Part shown: positions 803 through 39,881 of the stretch, one piece after another | Layout of the letters: each line of letters begins with the position of its first letter | Position numbering within the stretch: position 1 is the first letter of the stretch | Assembly: GCF_000429325.1 (NCBI RefSeq) | Contig: NZ_AUBQ01000004.1 | Span: 248,001 to 312,000, forward strand | Source of the DNA: Fundidesulfovibrio putealis DSM 16056 | GTDB lineage: Bacteria > Desulfobacterota > Desulfovibrionia > Desulfovibrionales > Desulfovibrionaceae | Reading direction: 5' to 3' | Length of the DNA stretch: 64,000 bases | Notes under the pieces: model-generated | What the model saw: the letters and a program-made list of their open reading frames with translations, nothing else | What the model was told of the DNA's origin: nothing | Databases searched by the model: none | Translations under genes and position numbers: made by a program

Positions 803-1681
803 TTAACCTTCCTTGAGGTAGACGATGGCTCCCGGGTAGTGCTTGGGCTTGAACGCTCGGGAAATGTTGTGCAACGACTCGGAATGGCCGATCAGCATGA
901 ATCCGCCGGGCATAAGATTGTCGTAGAAGGAACCGATGACGTTCTTCTTCATCTCATCATCGAAGTAGATGATGACGTTGCGGCAGAAAACTATCTGTGA
1001 ACGGTCGACGCGTTTGAGCATCGCCTTGTCGCTCAAGTTTATCTGGCCGAAATTCACCAGACGTTTGACTTCCGGCTTCACCTTGAACTTGTCTTCCTCT
1101 TGAGTGAAGTACTTGGCGACGATTTCCTTGGGGGTGGTCCGCAGGGTGTAGTCGTTGTAGACGCCGCGCCGTGCCGAGGTCAGCACCGCTTCGGACAGGT
1201 CGTTGGCAGTGATCTTTATGTCCCAGGAGGCGATCTCGGATTTGAGAACCTCATGCAGGATGATGGCGATGGTGTAGGGTTCCTCGCCAGTGGAGCACCC
1301 GGCCGACCAGATGCGCAGTTTCCTGGCGCCCAGCTTGCGCTGCTTTTCTATCACCTCGCTCACCACGTTGTTCTGAAATACAGCCAGCTGAGGCGGGTTG
1401 CGATAGAAGCTGGTCTCGTTGGTGGTGACCACTTCGAAAAGGCGGTTCAACTCCAGGCGTTTGCTCGGGTCGTACTGAAGAAAGTGGTAGTACTCGGCAA
1501 AGCTCTTGAGGTTCAGCTCCTTGAGCCTGTTGGCCAGCCTGTTCTCCAGCAGGTACTTGCGGTTGTCCGCGATGTAAATGCCGGACTGCTGGTAGATGTA
1601 GTCCCGCAGTTGCACGAACTCGGAATCCGCGATTTTGAGTTCTTTGCGCAGGGATATGGTCTTTGAAAAAAGCGAGGACAT
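803..1681 (-). CDS. cheR: CheR chemotaxis protein methyltransferase
   Basis: SAM-dependent methyltransferase that methylates glutamates on methyl-accepting chemotaxis receptors in the cytoplasm. The 292-residue length is normal for CheR. It has the all-alpha N-terminal domain (to about residue 85), then the Rossmann domain with RIWSAGCSTGEEPYTIAI (SAM-binding motif I, near residue 125), and ends with IVFCRNVIIYFDDEMKK and GGFMLIGHSESL, both characteristic of CheR. ATG at 1681 lies directly after the upstream HEAT-repeat stop, with GGAGAGG as ribosome binding site inside that gene. Counterpart of the CheB esterase in the same operon. Confidence 0.96.
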   Translation of the reverse strand: MSSLFSKTISLRKELKIADSEFVQLRDYIYQQSGIYIADNRKYLLENRLANRLKELNLKSFAEYYHFLQYDPSKRLELNRLFEVVTTNETSFYRNPPQLAVFQNNVVSEVIEKQRKLGARKLRIWSAGCSTGEEPYTIAIILHEVLKSEIASWDIKITANDLSEAVLTSARRGVYNDYTLRTTPKEIVAKYFTQEEDKFKVKPEVKRLVNFGQINLSDKAMLKRVDRSQIVFCRNVIIYFDDEMKKNVIGSFYDNLMPGGFMLIGHSESLHNISRAFKPKHYPGAIVYLKEG

Positions 1682-5229: not shown

Positions 5230-7416
5230 CTACCTCATTGTCTCGTCCACGTTGCGCTTCACCTCGATGACCTCGGGAAGCTTCTGCAGGTGGTCAATAG
5301 TGCGGTAGAGATGCCCGGAGTCTTTCACTTCGACCGTGAAAACGATCTCCGTGCGTCCGTCCACGCTGGAATTGAAGGTGCCGGAGTCGATGTTCACGCC
5401 ATCGTCGGAGAGAATTGCGGAGATCTTGGCCAGCACGCCTTTCTTGTTGCGGGCCAGAATGGCGATCTTGGCCGGATACGGTTTGTCCTCCTGCCCTTCC
5501 CAGGAGACTTGCAGCAGCCTTTCGGGCTCAAGGCTCGCGAGGTTCGGGCAGTCGTGGGTGTGCACGATCACGCCCCGGCCCCGGCTGATGTAGCCGATCA
5601 CCGGTTCGCCCGGCAGCGGCGTGCAGCAGCCCGCGAAGTTTACCAGCACGTTGTCCACGCCCTTGATGCGGATGGATTCCCCCACCTTGCCCTTGGCCGC
5701 TTCCGCCGCATGGGCGGCCTGGGCCGCCTGCGCCTCGGCGGTCTGGCCTTCGGTCTTGGCGGAAGCCTCCGGCTTGGGCAGGAAGGCGCGCAGCACGCGC
5801 CTCGGGGTCAGCTTGGAGTAGCCGATGGCCACCAGCAGTTCGTCCATGCCGGGGAAGTTGTACTCGGCCAGCACCGGGGCGAAGGCGTCCTCCTTGGTCA
5901 GGCGCGCCACGCTGAGCCCGTGTTTGCGGCCCTCCTTTTCCAGGAGTTCCTTGCCCAGGGCTATGGCCTCCTCGCGCTCCTGGGTCTTCACCCAGTGCTT
6001 GATGCGGGTGCGCGCCTTGGCGGTCTTGACGAACTTGAGCCAGTCCTTGCTGGGCTTGCGGTTCTTGTCGGTGATGATCTCCACGGCGTCGCCGTTTTTC
6101 AGCGGCGTGGAGAGCGGCACCAGCTTGCCGTTGACTTTGGCCCCGGTGCAGTGGCTGCCCACCTCCGTATGGATTGCGTAGGCGAAGTCCACGGGGGTGG
6201 CCCCCTCGGGCATCTCCTTCACGTCGCCCTTGGGGGTGAAGACGTACACCTCCTCCTGGAACAGATCGTAGCGTAGCGAGTGCATGAACTCCTTTGAGTC
6301 CGTGGCCTCGCGCTGCCAGTCCATGATCTGCCTAAGCCAGGTGAAGCGCTCGGCGTCGCGCGCGGCCATCTTCCCGGCCTTGCTGCGCTCCTTGTAGGCC
6401 CAGTGGGCGGCCACGCCGTACTCGGCCAGCTGGTTCATCTCCTCGGTGCGGATCTGTATCTCGATGCGCTCGCCGTCCGGGCCTATCACCGTGGTGTGCA
6501 GGCTCTGGTACATGTTGGCCTTGGGCATGGAGATGTAGTCCTTGAAGCGCCCGTGCACCGGCTTCCAGACCGAGTGCGCCAGGCCCAACACCGCATAGCA
6601 GTCCTTGAGGCTGCCCACGATGATGCGGAAGGCCACGATATCGTGCACCTCGTCCAGGGCCAGTCCCTGGGCCTTCATCTTGTTGTGCACGCTCCACAGG
6701 TGCTTCTTGCGCCCGAGCACCCTGCCCTTGATGCCATGCTCGTCCATGAGGTTCCGGATGATCTCAATGACCTTCTCGATGTAGGTCTCGTCCAGGACTT
6801 CATGCTCGTCCACGCCCTGGCGCAGCTGGTCGTAGATGTCCGGCTTCAGGTGCTTGAAGGACAGATCCTCAAGTTCCACTTTAAGTCTGTGCAGGCCCAG
6901 GCGGTTGGCCAGGGGCGCATAGATGTCCATGGTCTCCTGGCTGATGAGCTGGCGCTTCATGGGTTTCTGGAAGTCCATGGTGCGCATGTTGTGCAGCCTG
7001 TCCGCCAGTTTCACCAGGATGACCCGGATGTCCTCGGCCATGGCCAGCACCATCTTGCGGATGTTCTCGGCCTGGGCCTCCTCCTTGGACTCGAAGGACA
7101 TGAGGCTTATCTTGGTGACGCCATCCACGATGTCGGCCACTTCCTCGCTGAACTGCTCCTCGATCTCGTCGATGGTGGCGATGGTGTCTTCCACGGTGTC
7201 GTGGAGCAGTCCCGCCGCGATGCTGGGAGCGTCCAGGCGCATTTCCGCCAGGATGTTGGCAACCTCAAGGGGGTGCGAGAGATAGGGTTCGCCCGAAAGG
7301 CGCACCTGTCCGGCGTGCGCGGCCGCAGAATACACATAGGCCTTGGTGATGAGGTCCTGCCCGGCCTGGTCCATGTAGGGCGAGACCTTGTCCATGATTT
7401 CGTTGATGCGGATCAT
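5230..7416 (-). CDS. spoT: Bifunctional (p)ppGpp synthetase/hydrolase (Rel/SpoT)
   Basis: RSH enzyme that makes and degrades the stringent-response alarmone (p)ppGpp. The HD hydrolase domain is intact (AAAHAGQ, YLSHPLEVA, LLHDTVEDT with the HD pair near residue 72). The synthetase domain has RFKDYISMPKANMYQSLHTT; its RFKD is the RXKD form typical of bifunctional enzymes rather than the EXDD of monofunctional RelA. TGS (about 385-445) and a C-terminal ACT domain (LAILARNKKGVLAKISAIL-like) follow. 728 residues, the usual size. The start is ATG 7416, which overlaps the upstream lipoprotein stop by four bases (ATGA), implying translational coupling; a longer reading frame exists but lies inside the neighbour. 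Confidence 0.95.
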   Translation of the reverse strand: MIRINEIMDKVSPYMDQAGQDLITKAYVYSAAAHAGQVRLSGEPYLSHPLEVANILAEMRLDAPSIAAGLLHDTVEDTIATIDEIEEQFSEEVADIVDGVTKISLMSFESKEEAQAENIRKMVLAMAEDIRVILVKLADRLHNMRTMDFQKPMKRQLISQETMDIYAPLANRLGLHRLKVELEDLSFKHLKPDIYDQLRQGVDEHEVLDETYIEKVIEIIRNLMDEHGIKGRVLGRKKHLWSVHNKMKAQGLALDEVHDIVAFRIIVGSLKDCYAVLGLAHSVWKPVHGRFKDYISMPKANMYQSLHTTVIGPDGERIEIQIRTEEMNQLAEYGVAAHWAYKERSKAGKMAARDAERFTWLRQIMDWQREATDSKEFMHSLRYDLFQEEVYVFTPKGDVKEMPEGATPVDFAYAIHTEVGSHCTGAKVNGKLVPLSTPLKNGDAVEIITDKNRKPSKDWLKFVKTAKARTRIKHWVKTQEREEAIALGKELLEKEGRKHGLSVARLTKEDAFAPVLAEYNFPGMDELLVAIGYSKLTPRRVLRAFLPKPEASAKTEGQTAEAQAAQAAHAAEAAKGKVGESIRIKGVDNVLVNFAGCCTPLPGEPVIGYISRGRGVIVHTHDCPNLASLEPERLLQVSWEGQEDKPYPAKIAILARNKKGVLAKISAILSDDGVNIDSGTFNSSVDGRTEIVFTVEVKDSGHLYRTIDHLQKLPEVIEVKRNVDETMR

Positions 7417-9116
7417 TTGGCGTAGGTATTTCTTTGCTGGGACGCAGGAATCCACCAGCGGACGAAGTTCCAGGAAATTCCCGCCGGAGCCGGTTCCACG
7501 CCGTGGACGCGCTCCGTCAGGATGGGCAGTGCATAGGGGGTGTACAGGAAACAATACGGCTGGTCCTCGTGGAGGATTTCCTGAAACCGGTCATATATGG
7601 GCTTCCGGCCGGCCGGGTCCACGAGGTTTCGCCCCTGTTCCAGCAGCGCGTCGGCCTCTGGATTGGCGTAGCCCACGAAGTTGAGACCCGGCTTGGCTAT
7701 CTTTGAGGAGTGCCACACGTCGAAGGCGTCCGGGTCCTGCGGGATGGACCAGGCCAGCAGCACGGTCTCGTAGCGGCGCTGGTCCACGAACTCCTTGATG
7801 AACGTGGCCCACTCGATGGTGCGCACCTTCACCTGGATGCCGATGCGCGCCATCTGCGCCTGGATGATGGCGCAGGCCTTGATGCGTTGCTCGTTGCCCT
7901 GGTTGGTGATGATGGAGAATGCGAAGGGCTTGCCGTCCTTCATGAGCGGCCCTGTGGGCGTTTCGCGCTTCCACCCCAGCCGCGCCAGGAGCATCTGGGC
8001 CTTGCCCGGGTCGTACTCGTAGTCGGCGATATCGTGATTGTAGGCCCAGGAGTCCGGTTTATAATGGCCGATGGTCGGCACGCCCAGGCCCATCAGCGCT
8101 CCCTTGATGATCTCTTCCTTGCCTATGGCGTGGGCCAGGGCCTGTCGGACCGCCTTGTCCCTGAACAGGGGGTGCTCCAGGTTGTAGGCCATGTAGGCGT
8201 AGGACGAGGCCAGGTATTTGTACTTGCGGAAGTCCCGCTCCCACTGTTTGCCGCTGGTGAGGAACAGATACTGCGGCGGCGTCAGTCCGATGTAGTCCAG
8301 GTTTCCGGCCTTGAGCTCCATGAACTGGGTGGTCTGGTCCGGCACAATGCGGTAGACCACCTCGTCGATGTTGGGCCTGCCCTCGAAATAGTCCGGATTG
8401 GCCTCCAGGATGACCCGTTGGTTCTCCACCCACTGCTTCAGCTTGTACGGCCCGGCCCCCATGGGCTGGCGCGAGTACTTCGTGTTGGTCAGGTCCTCGT
8501 TCTCCAGGGCGTGCTTGGGCAGTATGTCCTGGGCCCAGGTGGACACGGCCCTGGCGAAGGGCTTCTCGTAGAACACCTCGAAGGTGTATTTCCCGGTCAG
8601 CCTGAATTCCTTGATGGCCATGAAGTCCCCGGCATAGGCCGTGGGCGTGTTGGGGTTCACCATGACCTTGTAGGTGAACTCCACGTCCTCGGCGGTGAGG
8701 GGCGTGCCGTCGAACCAGCGGATGTCTTCGCGCATCTTGAAGGTCAGGTGCCGTCCGCCGTCGAGTACCTGGAAGGATTCGGCGGCGTAGGGCTCGATGA
8801 CGATGTTCTTGTCGTAGCGCAAGGGCGATACGTAGATGAGCGAGGCCACCTCATGGGAGGCCGAGTCTGTGGACAACACTGAAATGAGGTTGGAGGGCTC
8901 GCCCAGCGTGGCCATGGTGATGCGCCCGCCCTGCTCCGGCTTCTCGTCTCCGGGCGCCGCACGGGCGGACGCGGCCGGGTCGCCCGTGAGCGATTCGCCG
9001 GACTTGGGAGAGTCGCATCCGGCCGCCAACAGGGCAAAAATACAGAACAAGACCGCTGGAAGTGTGAAATTCCGCCCAAGGCGGGAGAAATGCTTGCTTT
9101 GCTGTTGAAAATGCAT
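7413..9116 (-). CDS. Family-5 ABC solute-binding lipoprotein (oligopeptide/dipeptide-type)
   Basis: Periplasmic substrate-binding protein of the OppA/DppA class. Residues 1-33 form a lipoprotein signal with hydrophobic LPAVLFCIFALLAAGC; the lipobox LAAGC anchors it at the membrane. Family-5 hallmarks follow: AAESFQVLDGGRHLTFKMRE, WFDGTPLTAEDVEFTYKVM and VRQALAHAIGKEEI. No permease or ATPase gene is adjacent, so it is an orphan binding protein, and the ligand cannot be named. The stop overlaps the Rel/SpoT start, which is unusual company. ATG 9116 is chosen because it places the signal sequence correctly; no strong ribosome site is visible. Confidence 0.88.
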   Translation of the reverse strand: MHFQQQSKHFSRLGRNFTLPAVLFCIFALLAAGCDSPKSGESLTGDPAASARAAPGDEKPEQGGRITMATLGEPSNLISVLSTDSASHEVASLIYVSPLRYDKNIVIEPYAAESFQVLDGGRHLTFKMREDIRWFDGTPLTAEDVEFTYKVMVNPNTPTAYAGDFMAIKEFRLTGKYTFEVFYEKPFARAVSTWAQDILPKHALENEDLTNTKYSRQPMGAGPYKLKQWVENQRVILEANPDYFEGRPNIDEVVYRIVPDQTTQFMELKAGNLDYIGLTPPQYLFLTSGKQWERDFRKYKYLASSYAYMAYNLEHPLFRDKAVRQALAHAIGKEEIIKGALMGLGVPTIGHYKPDSWAYNHDIADYEYDPGKAQMLLARLGWKRETPTGPLMKDGKPFAFSIITNQGNEQRIKACAIIQAQMARIGIQVKVRTIEWATFIKEFVDQRRYETVLLAWSIPQDPDAFDVWHSSKIAKPGLNFVGYANPEADALLEQGRNLVDPAGRKPIYDRFQEILHEDQPYCFLYTPYALPILTERVHGVEPAPAGISWNFVRWWIPASQQRNTYAK

Positions 9117-9185
9117 AGAGTGTGTGGTTAGGCAATGGGTACAGGGTTTTTCACATTTTTGCGCTGCAACGGAGTATCGAGCGAC

Positions 9186-12100
9186 ATGGCCCTCACCAAC
9201 GAGGATGGTAAAGCCAAACAACTCCTCCAGGAGTTTGTCCGGGAGACGATCCCTGAGTATATCATTGACGGCTCGCATTCAATCGTCGCGCAGGACGGCG
9301 TCCAGAAAATCGACGTCAAGAAGCGGGAACATTACTGGGATTTGGAGGGACAAGTCCAGGGGGATGATTTCCAGGTTTACACTTCCGAACTGGGGTTGAA
9401 CCTTGAGGAAGAAACCGTAACATTCTTCTGCAACTGCCCCGATTCCTTTTCCGGAGTGTGCCGCCACGTAGGCGCGACCGCACTCAAATTCCTGAAATCG
9501 CTCGACGGCAAGAAGAGCCAGGAGCACGACGCCCAGGCCAAGCAGAACGTGGAATGGCGTCAGAGCTTCCGCCACTTTTTCTCCACCGCCTTCGAACCGG
9601 AGGCCGGGAAGCACTACATCATCTACAGGTTCTTCCCCGAACCGGGACGCCTGCAAGTCGCCTTCTTCAGGGGACGCCAGAACAAATCCGGCCTCTCCCA
9701 GGTGCACACCGAGATAACGCTCGAGCAGATCATCCAGAACCCCGACTGGTGCGAGACCGCGCCCAGCCTGCCCCTGCTGGCCGAACAGATCGGGCATTTC
9801 CTGGATTATCGCGGCCACCGGGTGGACATCCCGGCAGGACTCATTTCCTGGTTCTTGTGGTCCATCGGCAAGGAATATTATCTCTACTGGCAGGACACCG
9901 AGCATCCGGTGCGCATCGAGCGCTCCACCATGCGCCTGCAGCTTCGCCCCATCATGGACGAGGAACAGGGCCTGCGCTTCGACATCTACCTGGCGCGCCC
10001 CGGCAAGGCCCCCTTCTCCATTCAGGGCCAGGAGACCTATTTCTACGGCCAGCTGCCCCTGTGGGTGTGCTGGAACAAGAGCTTCTATCCCGTGCAGACC
10101 GGCCTGCCCGCGCCCTTCATCCGGGAGATGGTGGAGAATCCGCCGGTAATTCCCGGAGCGGACGTGTCGGAGTTCCTGGACCGCGTCTGGACCAAGTTCC
10201 CCACCTCGGACCTCCACGGCCAGCAGGAATTCCTGGAGCGCATGAAGCCCAATTTCCTGCCAGCCAACTACAATCCCAAACTCTACCTGGACGAAGAAGG
10301 AAGCCTGCTGACCCTCCAGGTGCAGAACATCTACGAGACCGAGCACGGCGACATCTTCCAGGAAGGCCCCAACCCCGAGCTCCAGACCGGCTCCTACGCC
10401 TTCGAGGGCAAGAGCTTCCTCCTGGCGCGCGACCAGGACGCCGAGGCGGCCCTCATCGCCCAGCTCCAGGAGATGGAGTTCCAGCCGCGAAACAACGCCA
10501 ACTGGTTCCTGGAGCCGGAAGAGGCCATCGTCTTCCTGTTGGACGCCTACCCCAAGCTGGTGGAAAAGTACCGCGTCTACGGCGAGAAGAACCTCACCCG
10601 CTACAAGGTGCGCCTCTCCCAGCCGGTCATTGTGGCCGAGGTCGAGTCCGACGAGAAGGAAAAGTGGTTCGACCTGGAACTGGCCGTGCAATACGACGAC
10701 CAGCGCGTGCCCATCGACAAGATCTGGAAGGCCTGGACCCAGGGCAAGCGCTATGTGCAGCTGAAAGACGGCTCCTACACCAGCCTGCCCGAGAGCTGGC
10801 TCAAGCGCATCGGCCACAAGCTGCGCGCCCTGGGCTACGACCCGGACAAGCCGCCCCAGAAGCGCTTCAAGCAGTTCGAGGCCCCGGTGCTGGACAAGAT
10901 CCTTGAGGATCTGCCCGAGGCGCACACGGACTCCTTCCGGAACAGCCTGCGCGAAAAGATCCATAGTTTCGAGGAGATAAAGCCCATCAAGCAGCCCGCC
11001 GAGCTGAACGCGCAGCTGCGCCCGTATCAGCTCCAGGGCCTGGCCTACCTGAACTTCCTGCGGGAGTACGGTTTCGGCGGCATCCTGGCCGACGAAATGG
11101 GCCTGGGCAAGACCGTGCAGACGCTGTCCTTCATCCAGCATCTGTCCGACAAGGGAAACAAGGCCCCCAACCTGATCGTGGTGCCCACCTCGGTGCTGCC
11201 CAACTGGGACCGCGAGGCCGAGAAGTTCGTGCCGAACCTCAAGCGGGTCATCGTGTATGGGGCCAAGCGCGAGGGGATGTTCAAGAAGATCGCCGAGTCG
11301 CAGCTGGTGGTCACCACCTATGCCCTGCTGCGGCGCGACCTGGATGAGCTTTTGAACTTCGAGTTCAACTCCATCATCCTGGACGAAGCCCAGAACATCA
11401 AGAACCCCAATACGATAACTGCGCGGTCCGTGCGGCGCCTCAACGGCAAGATGCGCCTGTGCCTCTCGGGCACGCCCATTGAGAACAACCTCTTCGAGCT
11501 GTGGAGCCTCTTCGAGTTCCTCATGCCCGGCTTCCTGGGCAGCCAGAACTCCTTCCAGCGCGGCATAGTGAAGCCCATCAAGGACGGCGACGAGGAAACC
11601 CTCGACTACCTGCGCGGTCGCGTGAAGCCCTTCATCCTGCGCCGCACCAAGTCCGAGGTGGCCAAGGACCTGCCGCCCAAGGTGGAGAACGTCCAGTACT
11701 GCGCGCTCATCGACGAGCAGGCCGAGCTGTACTCGCAGCTGGCCAAGAAGCTGCGCGATCAGGTGCTGCGCGACGTGGACGAAAAGGGCATGGCCAAGTC
11801 CCAGATGTCCATCCTGGATGCGCTTTTGAAGCTGCGCCAGATCTGCTGCCACCCCAGGCTTCTCAAGCTGGACATGCCCGGCGTGAACACCAACCTGCCC
11901 TCCGGCAAGTTCGACACCTTCAAGGACCTCGTCACCGACGTGGTGGAGGAAGGCCACAAGGTGCTGGTGTTCTCGCAGTTCGTGCAGATGCTGCACATCA
12001 TCCGCAGCTGGCTGCAAATCAACCAGACGCCCTTCTGCTACCTGGACGGCTCCAGCAAGGACCGCTTCGAGCAGGTGGACCGCTTCAACAACACCCCGGA

Positions 12101-13681: not shown

Positions 13682-15139
13682 TTACAACCCCGTCAGCTCG
13701 AACACCGTCTCAGCCTCGCTGTCCCAGCCGTCCCACAGGAAGTCGTCGGCCTTGCCGTCGGCTATCAAGCGCAGCGCGTAGCGTGTCTGGTCTTCGTAGA
13801 ACCCGCAGAACGCTCCCATGCGGTTCATGGCCCCGTTCATTTCGATGGCCTCAGCCGGGCACGGCGATCCGCAGAAGTGGCGGATGGCGCAGCGGTTGCA
13901 CGGTGTGATGTCCTCCACCTTGCGGCCCGTGACCTGGGCGAAGGGGGCGCTTTGCAGCACGTCGCCGATGGCGTCCGTGAACAGATTGCCGCCCTTGAAG
14001 TGCGGCAGGCCGATGAACTCGCTGCACGGGAACATGTCACCGTTGGGGGCCAGGGCGAAAAAGCAACGCCCGCCGCCGCAGGGGGAGATGTCGCACATCA
14101 GCCGCCGGGCCGTGGGGGCCATGATGGCCAGCAGGATGTTGGCGAAGTTGGCCACCACCAGTTTGCGCCCGGTCTCGCGGTACAACTCGTGGCTGCGCTC
14201 CAGGGCCGAGACGAACTGCCGACCGGCGTCCTGGTCGCCTGGCATGATCTCTCTCGCGCCGGGCAGTGTGCAGCGCACGATGTTCAACAGGCAGGTCTCC
14301 ACTTCGTTCGTGTGGAAGAACTCCACCACCTCGGGCAGCGTGGCGATATTTTTTGCGGTCACGGTGCAGATGACGTTGAACCCGGAGTAGCCGCGCAGCA
14401 TGTCCATGGCCCGGCGCACCAGATGTGATACGCCCTCCCCGCTCCAGGTCTTGCGAGTACTGTCCGCGATTGCGGCGTCCACGCCGTCCAGAGAGATACC
14501 CACGCCCACGTTGCGCTCGGTCAGGAATTCCACGGCCTGTTCGTCCAGCAGGGTGGCGTTGGTCTGCACGCCGAAGCGGAAATCATCCTTGAAGGCCTCG
14601 ATGCCCTGGAATACGGCTTCGCGGTTCATGAGGGGCTCCGCCCCGTGGAAGATGATCTGTGGCTTGCGGCCCTCAGGCATCGTGGCTGTGAAATGGGCCT
14701 TCAGCCTGGAAAGCGCGTCCAGCAGCGTATCGGGGCTCATGTGGATGCCCTTGGAGCGCATGTCGCCGGGGATGTAGCAGTAGGTGCAGTTCAGGTTGCA
14801 GCGCTCGGTGGGGTTGAAGTAGACCGCCGAGGGCGTGAGCCCGAAACGCAACCCATCCATTTCCTCGCGAAAGCGGCCCGCCTTGGCGCGGTAGGCGTCC
14901 AGGAACGAGGAGTCCGTCAGCGCATGGCCCAACTTGTCCTTTTTCACCAGGGACCAGAAGGCGCTGTCGGGCTCGATAAGGGCCAGATAGTCCGAGTGGC
15001 CGATGTCCACGGGCTGAAAGGTGGGGCCATGGCCGGTATTGATGAAGCGCGGCGAAGCCTCCGATGCTGGACCATGGACTGTATCAATGAAGCGGCCCCC
15101 GGTGGAGGCCGCTTCCGAGGCGTTGTGGTCGGGATTCAT
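13682..15139 (-). CDS. cbpB: Peptide-modifying radical SAM/SPASM enzyme (CbpB-like)
   Basis: 485-residue radical SAM enzyme. The canonical cluster motif is CNLNCTYC (Cys114, 118, 121). A C-terminal SPASM region carries extra cysteines in CDISPCGGGRCF, MFPCSEF and CNRCAIRHFCGSPCPAE for auxiliary Fe-S clusters, as in RiPP maturases. ATG 15139 overlaps the stop of a 35-residue peptide gene by four bases, so the two are translationally coupled. The pair sits behind a cobalamin riboswitch, which fits my recollection of the CbpA/CbpB peptide-maturase family. The N-terminus contains an imperfect duplication (RFIDTVHGP near 16-24, RFINTGHGP near 31-39). The modification is unknown, but Cys17 of the peptide is an obvious target. 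Confidence 0.85.
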   Translation of the reverse strand: MNPDHNASEAASTGGRFIDTVHGPASEASPRFINTGHGPTFQPVDIGHSDYLALIEPDSAFWSLVKKDKLGHALTDSSFLDAYRAKAGRFREEMDGLRFGLTPSAVYFNPTERCNLNCTYCYIPGDMRSKGIHMSPDTLLDALSRLKAHFTATMPEGRKPQIIFHGAEPLMNREAVFQGIEAFKDDFRFGVQTNATLLDEQAVEFLTERNVGVGISLDGVDAAIADSTRKTWSGEGVSHLVRRAMDMLRGYSGFNVICTVTAKNIATLPEVVEFFHTNEVETCLLNIVRCTLPGAREIMPGDQDAGRQFVSALERSHELYRETGRKLVVANFANILLAIMAPTARRLMCDISPCGGGRCFFALAPNGDMFPCSEFIGLPHFKGGNLFTDAIGDVLQSAPFAQVTGRKVEDITPCNRCAIRHFCGSPCPAEAIEMNGAMNRMGAFCGFYEDQTRYALRLIADGKADDFLWDGWDSEAETVFELTGL

Positions 15140-15243
15140 TTCGCTTTCTTGTCCATGAGGATGTAGTGCGACAGGCCTGTGCCGTCGGCGTTGCAGGATT
15201 TGCGGATGGCGATGACGTCCTTGTTTTCCTTCTTCTTTTCCAT
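15136..15243 (-). CDS. cbpA: Precursor peptide of modified-peptide (RiPP-like) system (CbpA-like)
   Basis: 35-residue peptide with a lysine-rich leader (MEKKKENK), then VIAIRKSCNADGTGLSHYIL and a basic tail. It has a single cysteine at position 17. An excellent ribosome site (AGGAGGA at 15249-15255) precedes ATG 15243. The stop codon overlaps the start of a SPASM radical SAM gene, the standard arrangement for a substrate peptide and its maturase. It lies downstream of a cobalamin riboswitch and terminator, so expression should rise when cobalamin is scarce. No homology beyond the CbpA-type context is claimed, and the mature product is unknown. Confidence 0.75.
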   Translation of the reverse strand: MEKKKENKDVIAIRKSCNADGTGLSHYILMDKKAK

Positions 15244-15266
15244 GTGTTCCTCCTGTGGTTGGCAAC

Positions 15267-15307
15267 AAAAAAAGGGTTCTGACAGGCTAAGCCCGTCAGA
15301 ACCCTTT
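15267..15307 (-). terminator. Riboswitch expression-platform terminator
   Basis: Long stem (AAAGGGTTCTGAC... pairing with ...GTCAGAACCCTTT, 15271-15307) followed on the minus strand by a run of seven T. It lies between the cobalamin aptamer and cbpA, as expected for transcription attenuation. Confidence 0.88.
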
Positions 15308-15330
15308 ACCTTCGGATTCCGATAGAGAGA

Positions 15331-15485
15331 CGTACGACAGGTCTTCTGGCTCACGGATCGTCCGCTGGGGGGCAAGCCTTCCCAACGGAGAATATCCGCC
15401 AGTGGCCGGCAATGCGCCATGCCCTCCCGCGTCCCCGCTTACAGTGGTGGGTCCGCCACGGATTCGCACCGTGTTCCGAGATGTC
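15331..15485 (-). ncRNA. Cobalamin (adenosylcobalamin/B12) riboswitch
   Basis: Read on the minus strand, the conserved cobalamin-aptamer elements occur in order: GGTGCGAATCCG, GCGGACCCACCACTGTAAG, GGCCACTGG, TTGGGAAGGC, and the B12 box GAGCCAGAAGACCTG (complement at about 15337-15352). A promoter sits just upstream and an intrinsic terminator just downstream. The likely effect is reduced cbpAB transcription when cobalamin is bound. Exact ends are estimated. Confidence 0.93.
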
Positions 15486-15493
15486 GTTCAATA

Positions 15494-15522
15494 AAATTAG
15501 CCAGATCGGATGGTGCTGTCAA
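15494..15522 (-). promoter_or_regulatory. sigma-70-type promoter of riboswitch-cbpAB
   Basis: On the minus strand, TTGACA (15522-15517), a 17-base spacer and TAATTT (15499-15494). It is a near-consensus promoter whose predicted start lies immediately before the riboswitch core. Confidence 0.8.
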
Positions 15523-15654
15523 TGCACGTCCGCCCTTTCAGGCAGCTCGTGCTCAATCCGGTTCCCCTGGCTGCGGAAACAACACCAAAACGATTTGCGC
15601 CGCCGCGATTGCCGCATTTCATCCGCACGACCCATTTCCCTGGGAAATGGAGCC

Positions 15655-39807: not shown

Positions 39808-39881
39808 ATGCGAAACCGCCCTCCAGGGCGGTCGCCGGGACGTGGTGGTCCCGGCCTGATGAGCAGCCGAAGGAGTCACCC

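Follow-up and report, generated by a model that had tools for sequence, protein, structure and literature searches.

Closest described systems

Two families in NCBIfam, the short peptide CbpA (TIGR04164) and the radical S-adenosylmethionine (SAM) enzyme CbpB (TIGR04163), are the closest described relatives of the gene pair reported here. Their names give no function, and the short names, cobo_pep and rSAM_cobopep, suggest that the NCBIfam curators saw a link to cobalamin (B12). In the literature we searched we found neither a paper on CbpA or CbpB nor a function for them. Cobalamin regulation in related bacteria has been described, with cbiK-cbiL, btuCDF and nrdDG under B12 elements, and passages of that work on cobalamin regulation do not mention a CbpA-like peptide (PMC545781). 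The stretch that we studied, which we call the window, is 64,000 nt of Fundidesulfovibrio putealis DSM 16056 (GCF_000429325.1, contig NZ_AUBQ01000004.1, positions 248,001 to 312,000 of the forward strand), and it holds a cbpA-cbpB pair (cbpAB) behind a cobalamin riboswitch. The family is already named, which the initial annotation of this DNA did not note; the useful part here is the link of cbpAB to cobamide operons. Our best explanation, to which we give an even chance, is that cbpAB is a cobamide-repressed operon for a ribosomally synthesized and post-translationally modified peptide (RiPP) that serves cobamide acquisition or assembly.

Both window proteins score above the curated cut-offs of these families (63.9 bits against 35 for CbpA and 710.3 against 375 for CbpB), and we found no difference in kind. 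The pair has the layout of a RiPP system, in which the gene for a small precursor is joined to that for its maturase. CbpB carries the Pfam domains Radical_SAM (PF04055) and SPASM (PF13186). The cysteines of the radical SAM CX3CX2C motif (C114, C118, C121) and of the SPASM cluster (C349, C354, C372, C414, C417, C423, C427, C445) are invariant in 36 CbpB sequences, which places it among the radical SAM/SPASM enzymes.

Among solved structures, the best match to CbpB in both sequence (E 2.2e-34) and fold (Z 33.5) is CteB (PDB 5why/5wgg), a thioether-forming SPASM maturase, although the two share only 18–19% identity and CteB has a different precursor. The fold comparison used an AlphaFold2 model with a mean predicted local distance difference test (pLDDT) of 84.2 and a predicted template modeling score (pTM) of 0.85, and the next matches were anaerobic sulfatase-maturating enzyme (anSME, 30.9), ChlB (30.3), TigE (27.7) and SuiB (24.4). 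All five are SPASM-type enzymes that act on peptides or proteins. The CteB alignment spans residues 37–462 of the CbpB model and reaches its N-terminal part, with the region outside 95–462 barely tested by the tool. The N-terminal part of CteB is a RiPP recognition element, and judging from the model CbpB may have such a recognition domain.

CbpB stays below the cut-offs of the other families that we compared. CteB is grouped with the SCIFF-type maturases, and CbpB scores 90.2 bits against the SCIFF-maturase cut-off of 425 (TIGR03974). The next-best NCBIfam match is to the PapB-type ranthipeptide maturases (NF047865), with 132.1 bits against a cut-off of 340. PapA has a CX3D spacing; CbpA, unlike PapA, has no CX3D and no Asp conserved at a fixed spacing. 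For the anaerobic sulfatase maturases (TIGR03942), which share the fold, the score is 113.5 against 349.45, and we recognized no sulfatase among the open reading frames (ORFs) near cbpAB, which we judged by eye. Pyrroloquinoline quinone (PQQ) and mycofactocin resemble cbpAB in having a short precursor with a conserved rather than variable core and a SPASM enzyme. Unlike them, cbpAB has no recognized linked peptidase or oxidoreductase, and CbpB scores 58.5 bits against the TIGR03962 cut-off of 265.

The cbpAB unit of Fundidesulfovibrio putealis

The unit lies on the reverse (-) strand and runs from 15522 to 13682, or 1,841 bp, in agreement with the compact unit of about 1.85 kb that the initial annotation of this DNA described. 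That annotation had also proposed a near-consensus promoter, and here only one half stood. The -35 element, read from the sequence, is a perfect TTGACA (15517–15522) and is kept in L035, the locus with the most similar CbpB, but the -10 element 17 nt past it (TAATTT, 15494–15499; TAGATT in L035) has 3 of 6 consensus bases. Due to this weak -10, a promoter consensus scan with a threshold of at least 9 of 12 called nothing at cbpAB. Because the promoter and the 5' end of the Rfam match overlap, the aptamer in the transcript probably begins near 15487.

The remaining parts of the annotated unit were all recovered. The cobalamin aptamer is at 15319–15525 (RF00174, 69.2 bits, E 5.6e-15), well over the gathering score of 31.5. 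Downstream, as the expression platform, is an intrinsic terminator (15271–15307, read from 15307) with a 17-pair stem of -28.3 kcal/mol and a run of T's after it. We found a candidate antiterminator, GGAATCC/GGGTTCT, upstream of the terminator; this pairing is weak and comes from a fold of the leader minus the 3' arm. A Shine-Dalgarno sequence, AGGAGG (15249–15254, read from the sequence), precedes cbpA (15136–15243), which encodes a 35-residue precursor with Arg14, Cys17 and Gly23-Leu24-Ser25-His26-Tyr27. The ATG of cbpB (13682–15139, 485 residues) overlaps the cbpA stop as ATGA. L035 shares the -35, aptamer, terminator and peptide with the window, and similarity is lower in the DNA ahead of the -35. 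As in the initial annotation, we recognized by eye no exporter or protease among the ORFs directly adjoining cbpAB. The unit goes far beyond what chance would give, since the aptamer, peptide and enzyme each score over a curated cut-off and are found together in other phyla as well.

Loci in other genomes

CbpB was over the cut-off in 36 of the 395 genomes drawn from the window's phylum. Full-length copies scored 601–723 bits, two fragmentary copies scored 442 and 407, and the best score below the cut-off in this sample was 123. One further ORF of 172 residues at a contig end (L115, G016:C14) scores 98 bits, below the cut-off, over the C-terminal part of the CbpB model and is probably a truncated CbpB or a close relative. 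A scan at the protein level over 84,980 species genomes, which detects close relatives only, gave 41 CbpB loci. Two of these (L044 and L068) share a genome with the already counted L011 (also L081, L110), and four (L059, L066, L070, L071) have no upstream sequence, so that 35 assessable cross-phylum loci remain. The cross-phylum genomes are mostly metagenome-assembled genomes (MAGs) of unstated completeness, so that the salvagers below are presumed ones.

The 36 sequences of the CbpB tree come from eleven phylum-level groups according to the submitters' titles, with two rows in no group. Their identity to the window CbpB is 51–66%, except for L035 at 95%. On the tree, members of different phylum groups are intermingled. 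This agrees with horizontal spread, and long branches and bin errors may contribute to the mixing.

In 71 of 77 loci cbpB has cbpA ahead of it, and the remaining six have no upstream sequence. CbpA was extracted with the pattern G[LIV][SAT]H[YFW] and a Cys somewhere before it, which partly fixes these residues; a narrower pattern, C..D[GA], missed most loci, and the cbpA of L080/L010 was recognized only once Ala was allowed in GLSHY. The initial annotation had suggested comparing conservation around Cys17. The Arg (not a search criterion), the Cys, the Gly-Leu and the His are invariant in 66 of 66 distinct CbpA sequences, with the Cys, Gly and His also being search criteria. The Ser is kept in 65 of the 66 and the Tyr in 63, with Phe in the other three. 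The stretch from the Cys to the Gly-Leu varies by two residues in length, and there is a single Cys in 66 of the 71 peptides. Such a core is what would be expected of a cofactor-like or ligand-binding product and not of a variable antibiotic. We consider it highly probable that CbpB modifies CbpA.

Riboswitches ahead of cbpAB

A same-strand cobalamin riboswitch lies upstream in 62 of the 71 assessable loci: 34 of 36 in the window's phylum, and 28 of 35 across phyla (39 further loci minus the four that lack upstream sequence). One of these is barely over the threshold (L036, 33.4 bits), and three cross-phylum riboswitches are located 1.9–6.0 kb upstream of cbpA. Of the nine loci without a riboswitch, eight sit in cobamide operons (L008, L010, L049, L050, L054, L055, L074, L075; L008 and L010 are L079 and L080 in the neighbor count below), and L010/L080 has a riboswitch about 7.9 kb upstream on the same strand. 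The link of a RiPP-like product to B12 status that the initial annotation drew from one locus thus holds for the family, with 62 loci led by a riboswitch and eight more inside cobamide operons.

The riboswitch is usually close to the peptide gene. The gap is at most 275 nt in 26 of the 29 placed loci (L044 included), with a median of 97 among the 26. A terminator-like hairpin precedes cbpA in 48 of 58 riboswitch-led loci as compared to 62 of 580 shuffles, and in none of 12 other loci that are embedded, far from a riboswitch or without one. We are very confident that B12 controls cbpAB. In L069, a transposase-like ORF (6228–7133, reverse strand, by eye) lies between the riboswitch (5717–5921) and cbpA at about 7.8 kb, which suggests that an insertion split the unit.

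The other three cobalamin riboswitches of the window's genome lead cbiK-btuC-btuD-btuF-cbiL, nrdG-nrdD and cobT (names by eye except CbiK); the one ahead of cobT is at about 5246–5419 of L112 (reverse strand). The nrdG-nrdD case is an argument for reading cbpAB as a B12-sparing system, comparable to B12-independent isozymes under riboswitch control, since a riboswitch before nrdDG is a known sparing arrangement (PMC545781). A B12-independent isozyme of this type would be expected to stand apart from cobamide synthesis genes, and this is not what we found. CbpB goes together with ring synthesis or with CobS-type completion, and in other phyla cbpAB is inside cobamide operons and not replacing them. 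A sparing pair should also occur mostly in genomes that neither make nor salvage cobamides, and we found the reverse. We consider this the least probable explanation, very far from likely, and the B12-sparing factor of the initial annotation is disfavored.

Cobamide genes next to cbpAB

In 20 of 74 loci (one, L096, is marginal), two or more cobamide genes are found within 9.5 kb of cbpAB, as a raw count. Five more loci have exactly one cobamide gene; in two of these (L084, L097) the gene matches methyltransferases weakly and may encode another enzyme. Neighbors were annotated partly with NCBIfam, and partly by similarity to those proteins and by eye.

The arrangements differ. In L056, L060, L063, L065 and L075, cbpAB heads or is inside cobC-cobU-cobT-cobS operons with btuF or btuFCD. 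One arrangement is cbpAB-cobC-cobU-cobT-cobS, and another is cobS-cbiB-cobD-asnB-like-cbpAB followed by btuFCD. In the Planctomycetota loci L036, L039 and L040, cbpAB is divergent from cobC-cobU-cobT-cobS and a second riboswitch is present. There are also ATPases in some of these cobamide operons: an asparagine-synthase-like ATPase is directly before cbpA in L063, L065 and L075, and a diphthine-ammonia-ligase-like ATPase follows cbpB in L063 and L075. Both are of amide-forming types.

In L054, L055, L079 and L080, cbpAB is after cbiC and directly before the CbiM-type cobalt uptake genes cbiMNQO (by eye), with a CbiX chelatase in between in L079 (G326) and L080 (G140). In G354, cbiK and a second riboswitch lie next to cbpAB. 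Co is naturally bound by Cys and His, and these loci would suit a mature peptide that is a cobalt chaperone or cobaltophore and delivers Co(II) to CbiK or CbiX, the chelatase of the ring stage. We think this unlikely, because carriers that appear to lack ring synthesis would not need cobalt insertion for B12, and because CbiK/CbiX and CbiM are nearly universal in genomes with CbiD whether or not CbpB is present (see below).

With cobT, cobU and cobS close by in several loci, the peptide could also be a starting material, consumed to make a small molecule (an unusual lower ligand, for instance) for use in assembling cobamides. Peptides are the source from which PQQ and mycofactocin are cut, and the CbpA core is likewise conserved and not variable. 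In family f91, BzaB-like enzymes are present in the CbpB-negative genomes G296 and G371 and absent from the CbpB-positive G255 and G390, but the CbpB-negative G276 also lacks one. Against this explanation, the Tyr is replaced by Phe in 3 of 66 peptides, we recognized no linked protease, and the L080 operon holds both cbpAB and a ThiC-like gene, possibly a lower-ligand enzyme. The ThiC/Bza counts given below do not help this explanation either, and we regard it as very unlikely.

CobO is a near neighbor in several loci. This would agree with the modified peptide being a regulator or redox cofactor, for instance one that acts in the reduction of Co(II) to Co(I) ahead of adenosylation, or with its signaling that cobamide is short. 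Redox cofactors made from peptides by radical SAM enzymes have precedents in PQQ and mycofactocin. However, we recognized no linked oxidoreductase or receptor, a negative of little weight as most neighbor clusters lacked annotation. We consider such a role doubtful, and quite unlikely overall.

Ring makers and salvagers

For the counts of CbiD, CbiK/CbiX, CbiM, CbiJ, ThiC/Bza and CobS, we left out G005 and G042 (79% and 67% complete). Within the window's phylum, CbiD was present in 34 of 34 CbpB-positive genomes (two of them partial and under the cut-off) as compared to 24 of 36 CbpB-negative genomes; the CbpB-negative genomes in these comparisons were hand-picked and p = 1.7e-4 is therefore descriptive. 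CobS was present in 33 of the 34 carriers (three under the cut-off). Across phyla, only 21 of 40 CbpB-positive genomes had CbiD. A confinement of CbpB to ring makers thus held in the window's phylum and failed across phyla.

Of the 19 cross-phylum carriers without CbiD, one has CobM/CbiF over the cut-off, and 18 of the 40 have neither (the three CbiD-positive genomes used as controls for the CobM/CbiF search were 3/3 over the cut-off). Many of the 18 appear to be salvagers, and some are probably incomplete genome bins. We believe the latter of G395, which is a near relative of the window's genome, and of G400, a sister of G396 and G399, since all of these relatives have CbiD. The salvager reading leans most on seven genomes with Omnitrophota titles (G407, G416, G419, G420, G423, G425, G428), which have CbiD in none and CobS in six. 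If ring synthesis is truly absent, most credibly in these seven, no cobalt insertion is needed for B12.

Among genomes without CbiD, CobS was found in 15 of 19 with CbpB (one partial, under the cut-off) and in 4 of 12 without. From these counts, carriage of the pair appears to track the capacity to complete cobamides more closely than the capacity for ring synthesis. Such a pattern speaks against B12 sparing, weakens a pure role in cobalt insertion, and points to corrinoid uptake, adenosylation or nucleotide-loop assembly. We think that cbpAB probably has a role in cobamide metabolism.

Other gene counts were less informative. CbiK or CbiX was present in 57 of 58 genomes with CbiD, as was CbiM in 57 of 58, regardless of CbpB. 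These counts do not discriminate between carriers and others, and we rejected CbpB/CbpA as a substitute for a cobalt chelatase or for cobalt uptake. CbiJ was found in 3 of 34 CbpB-positive and 2 of 24 CbpB-negative genomes, which says nothing about substitution for CbiJ. A lower-ligand enzyme missing from the carriers was not significant, with at least two ThiC/Bza copies in 1 of 34 as compared to 3 of 24 (p = 0.30); this search also covered eight cross-phylum genomes, outside the count. A lower-ligand role for the pair is neither supported nor excluded by these numbers.

Proposed role of the modified peptide

By the usual logic of such riboswitches, plentiful cobamide would favor the terminator and turn the pair off, and when cobamide is scarce the leader would be read through. 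CbpB would then bind CbpA, perhaps through its N-terminal domain, and apply SAM-derived radical chemistry to it, probably at Cys17. With no exporter seen adjoining, the mature peptide would remain intracellular. There it would be an accessory factor at a stage common to ring makers and salvagers, such as corrinoid uptake, adenosylation or nucleotide-loop assembly, and most likely would bind a corrinoid, or its cobalt, through Cys17 and His26. The cobalt- or corrinoid-binding product of the initial annotation may be correct: Arg, Cys and His are invariant and some relatives adjoin genes for corrinoid uptake, cobalt uptake or the nucleotide loop. We give rather less than an even chance to mature CbpA being a corrinoid or cobalt ligand. 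The same goes for the full mechanism, in which a Cys-modified RiPP that is turned on at cobamide shortage would use its Cys and His to bind a corrinoid or cobalt, in ring makers as well as in salvagers.

Several points weigh against a role in cobamide acquisition or assembly. In the window's own genome cbpAB stands alone, apart from the cobamide genes, and this is the case in most loci of its phylum. In total, the flank we examined, which is short in some loci, holds no cobamide gene in 49 of 74. The 20 loci with two or more such genes are not independent, as they include close relatives (L036/L039/L040, L049/L050 and L063/L065/L075). The pair is also dispensable: within the window's family only 2 of the 17 sampled genomes carry CbpB, and 13 of 13 CbpB-negative genomes tested from this family have CbiD. 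The CobS found in 4 of 12 CbpB-negative genomes without CbiD is a further point of this kind. Riboswitch control alone is no proof of a biosynthetic role, because nrdG-nrdD (by eye) is B12-independent and yet led by a riboswitch in the same genome. One locus, L047, has neither a riboswitch nor cobamide neighbors. Finally, the modification of CbpA and its binding of a corrinoid or cobalt are predictions from sequence.

L047 (CbpB at 8001–9389) is the sole assessable locus of this type, and its upstream flank has permease-like and thioredoxin-like ORFs, which by eye may resemble arsenic-resistance genes.

The known parts of the B12 pathway are enzymes and transporters. If cbpAB does serve cobamide acquisition or assembly, CbpA would be the first RiPP-derived component of the pathway, as far as we know from the literature searched. 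It would be an unforeseen type of part, shared across eleven phylum-level groups by ring makers and what appear to be salvagers, and would give a named but uncharacterized RiPP family its first functional anchor. One carrier, Rhodoblastus acidophilus DSM 137 (L051), is listed as a strain and not as a MAG, so a direct test with a single-Cys precursor is feasible.

Other RNA elements

Three other RNAs came up in the same material. In L048, a thiamin pyrophosphate (TPP) riboswitch (7697–7792, forward strand, 76.5 bits) is about 250 nt past cbpB and ahead of thiamin-type genes (by eye). In L006, an Acido-Lenti-1 RNA (46.2 bits, 1237–1281, reverse strand) lies between cbpA and cbpB on the opposite strand. 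The window itself has a type II hammerhead ribozyme (RF02276, 75.3 bits) at 39808–39872 on the forward strand, in a bacterial chromosome.

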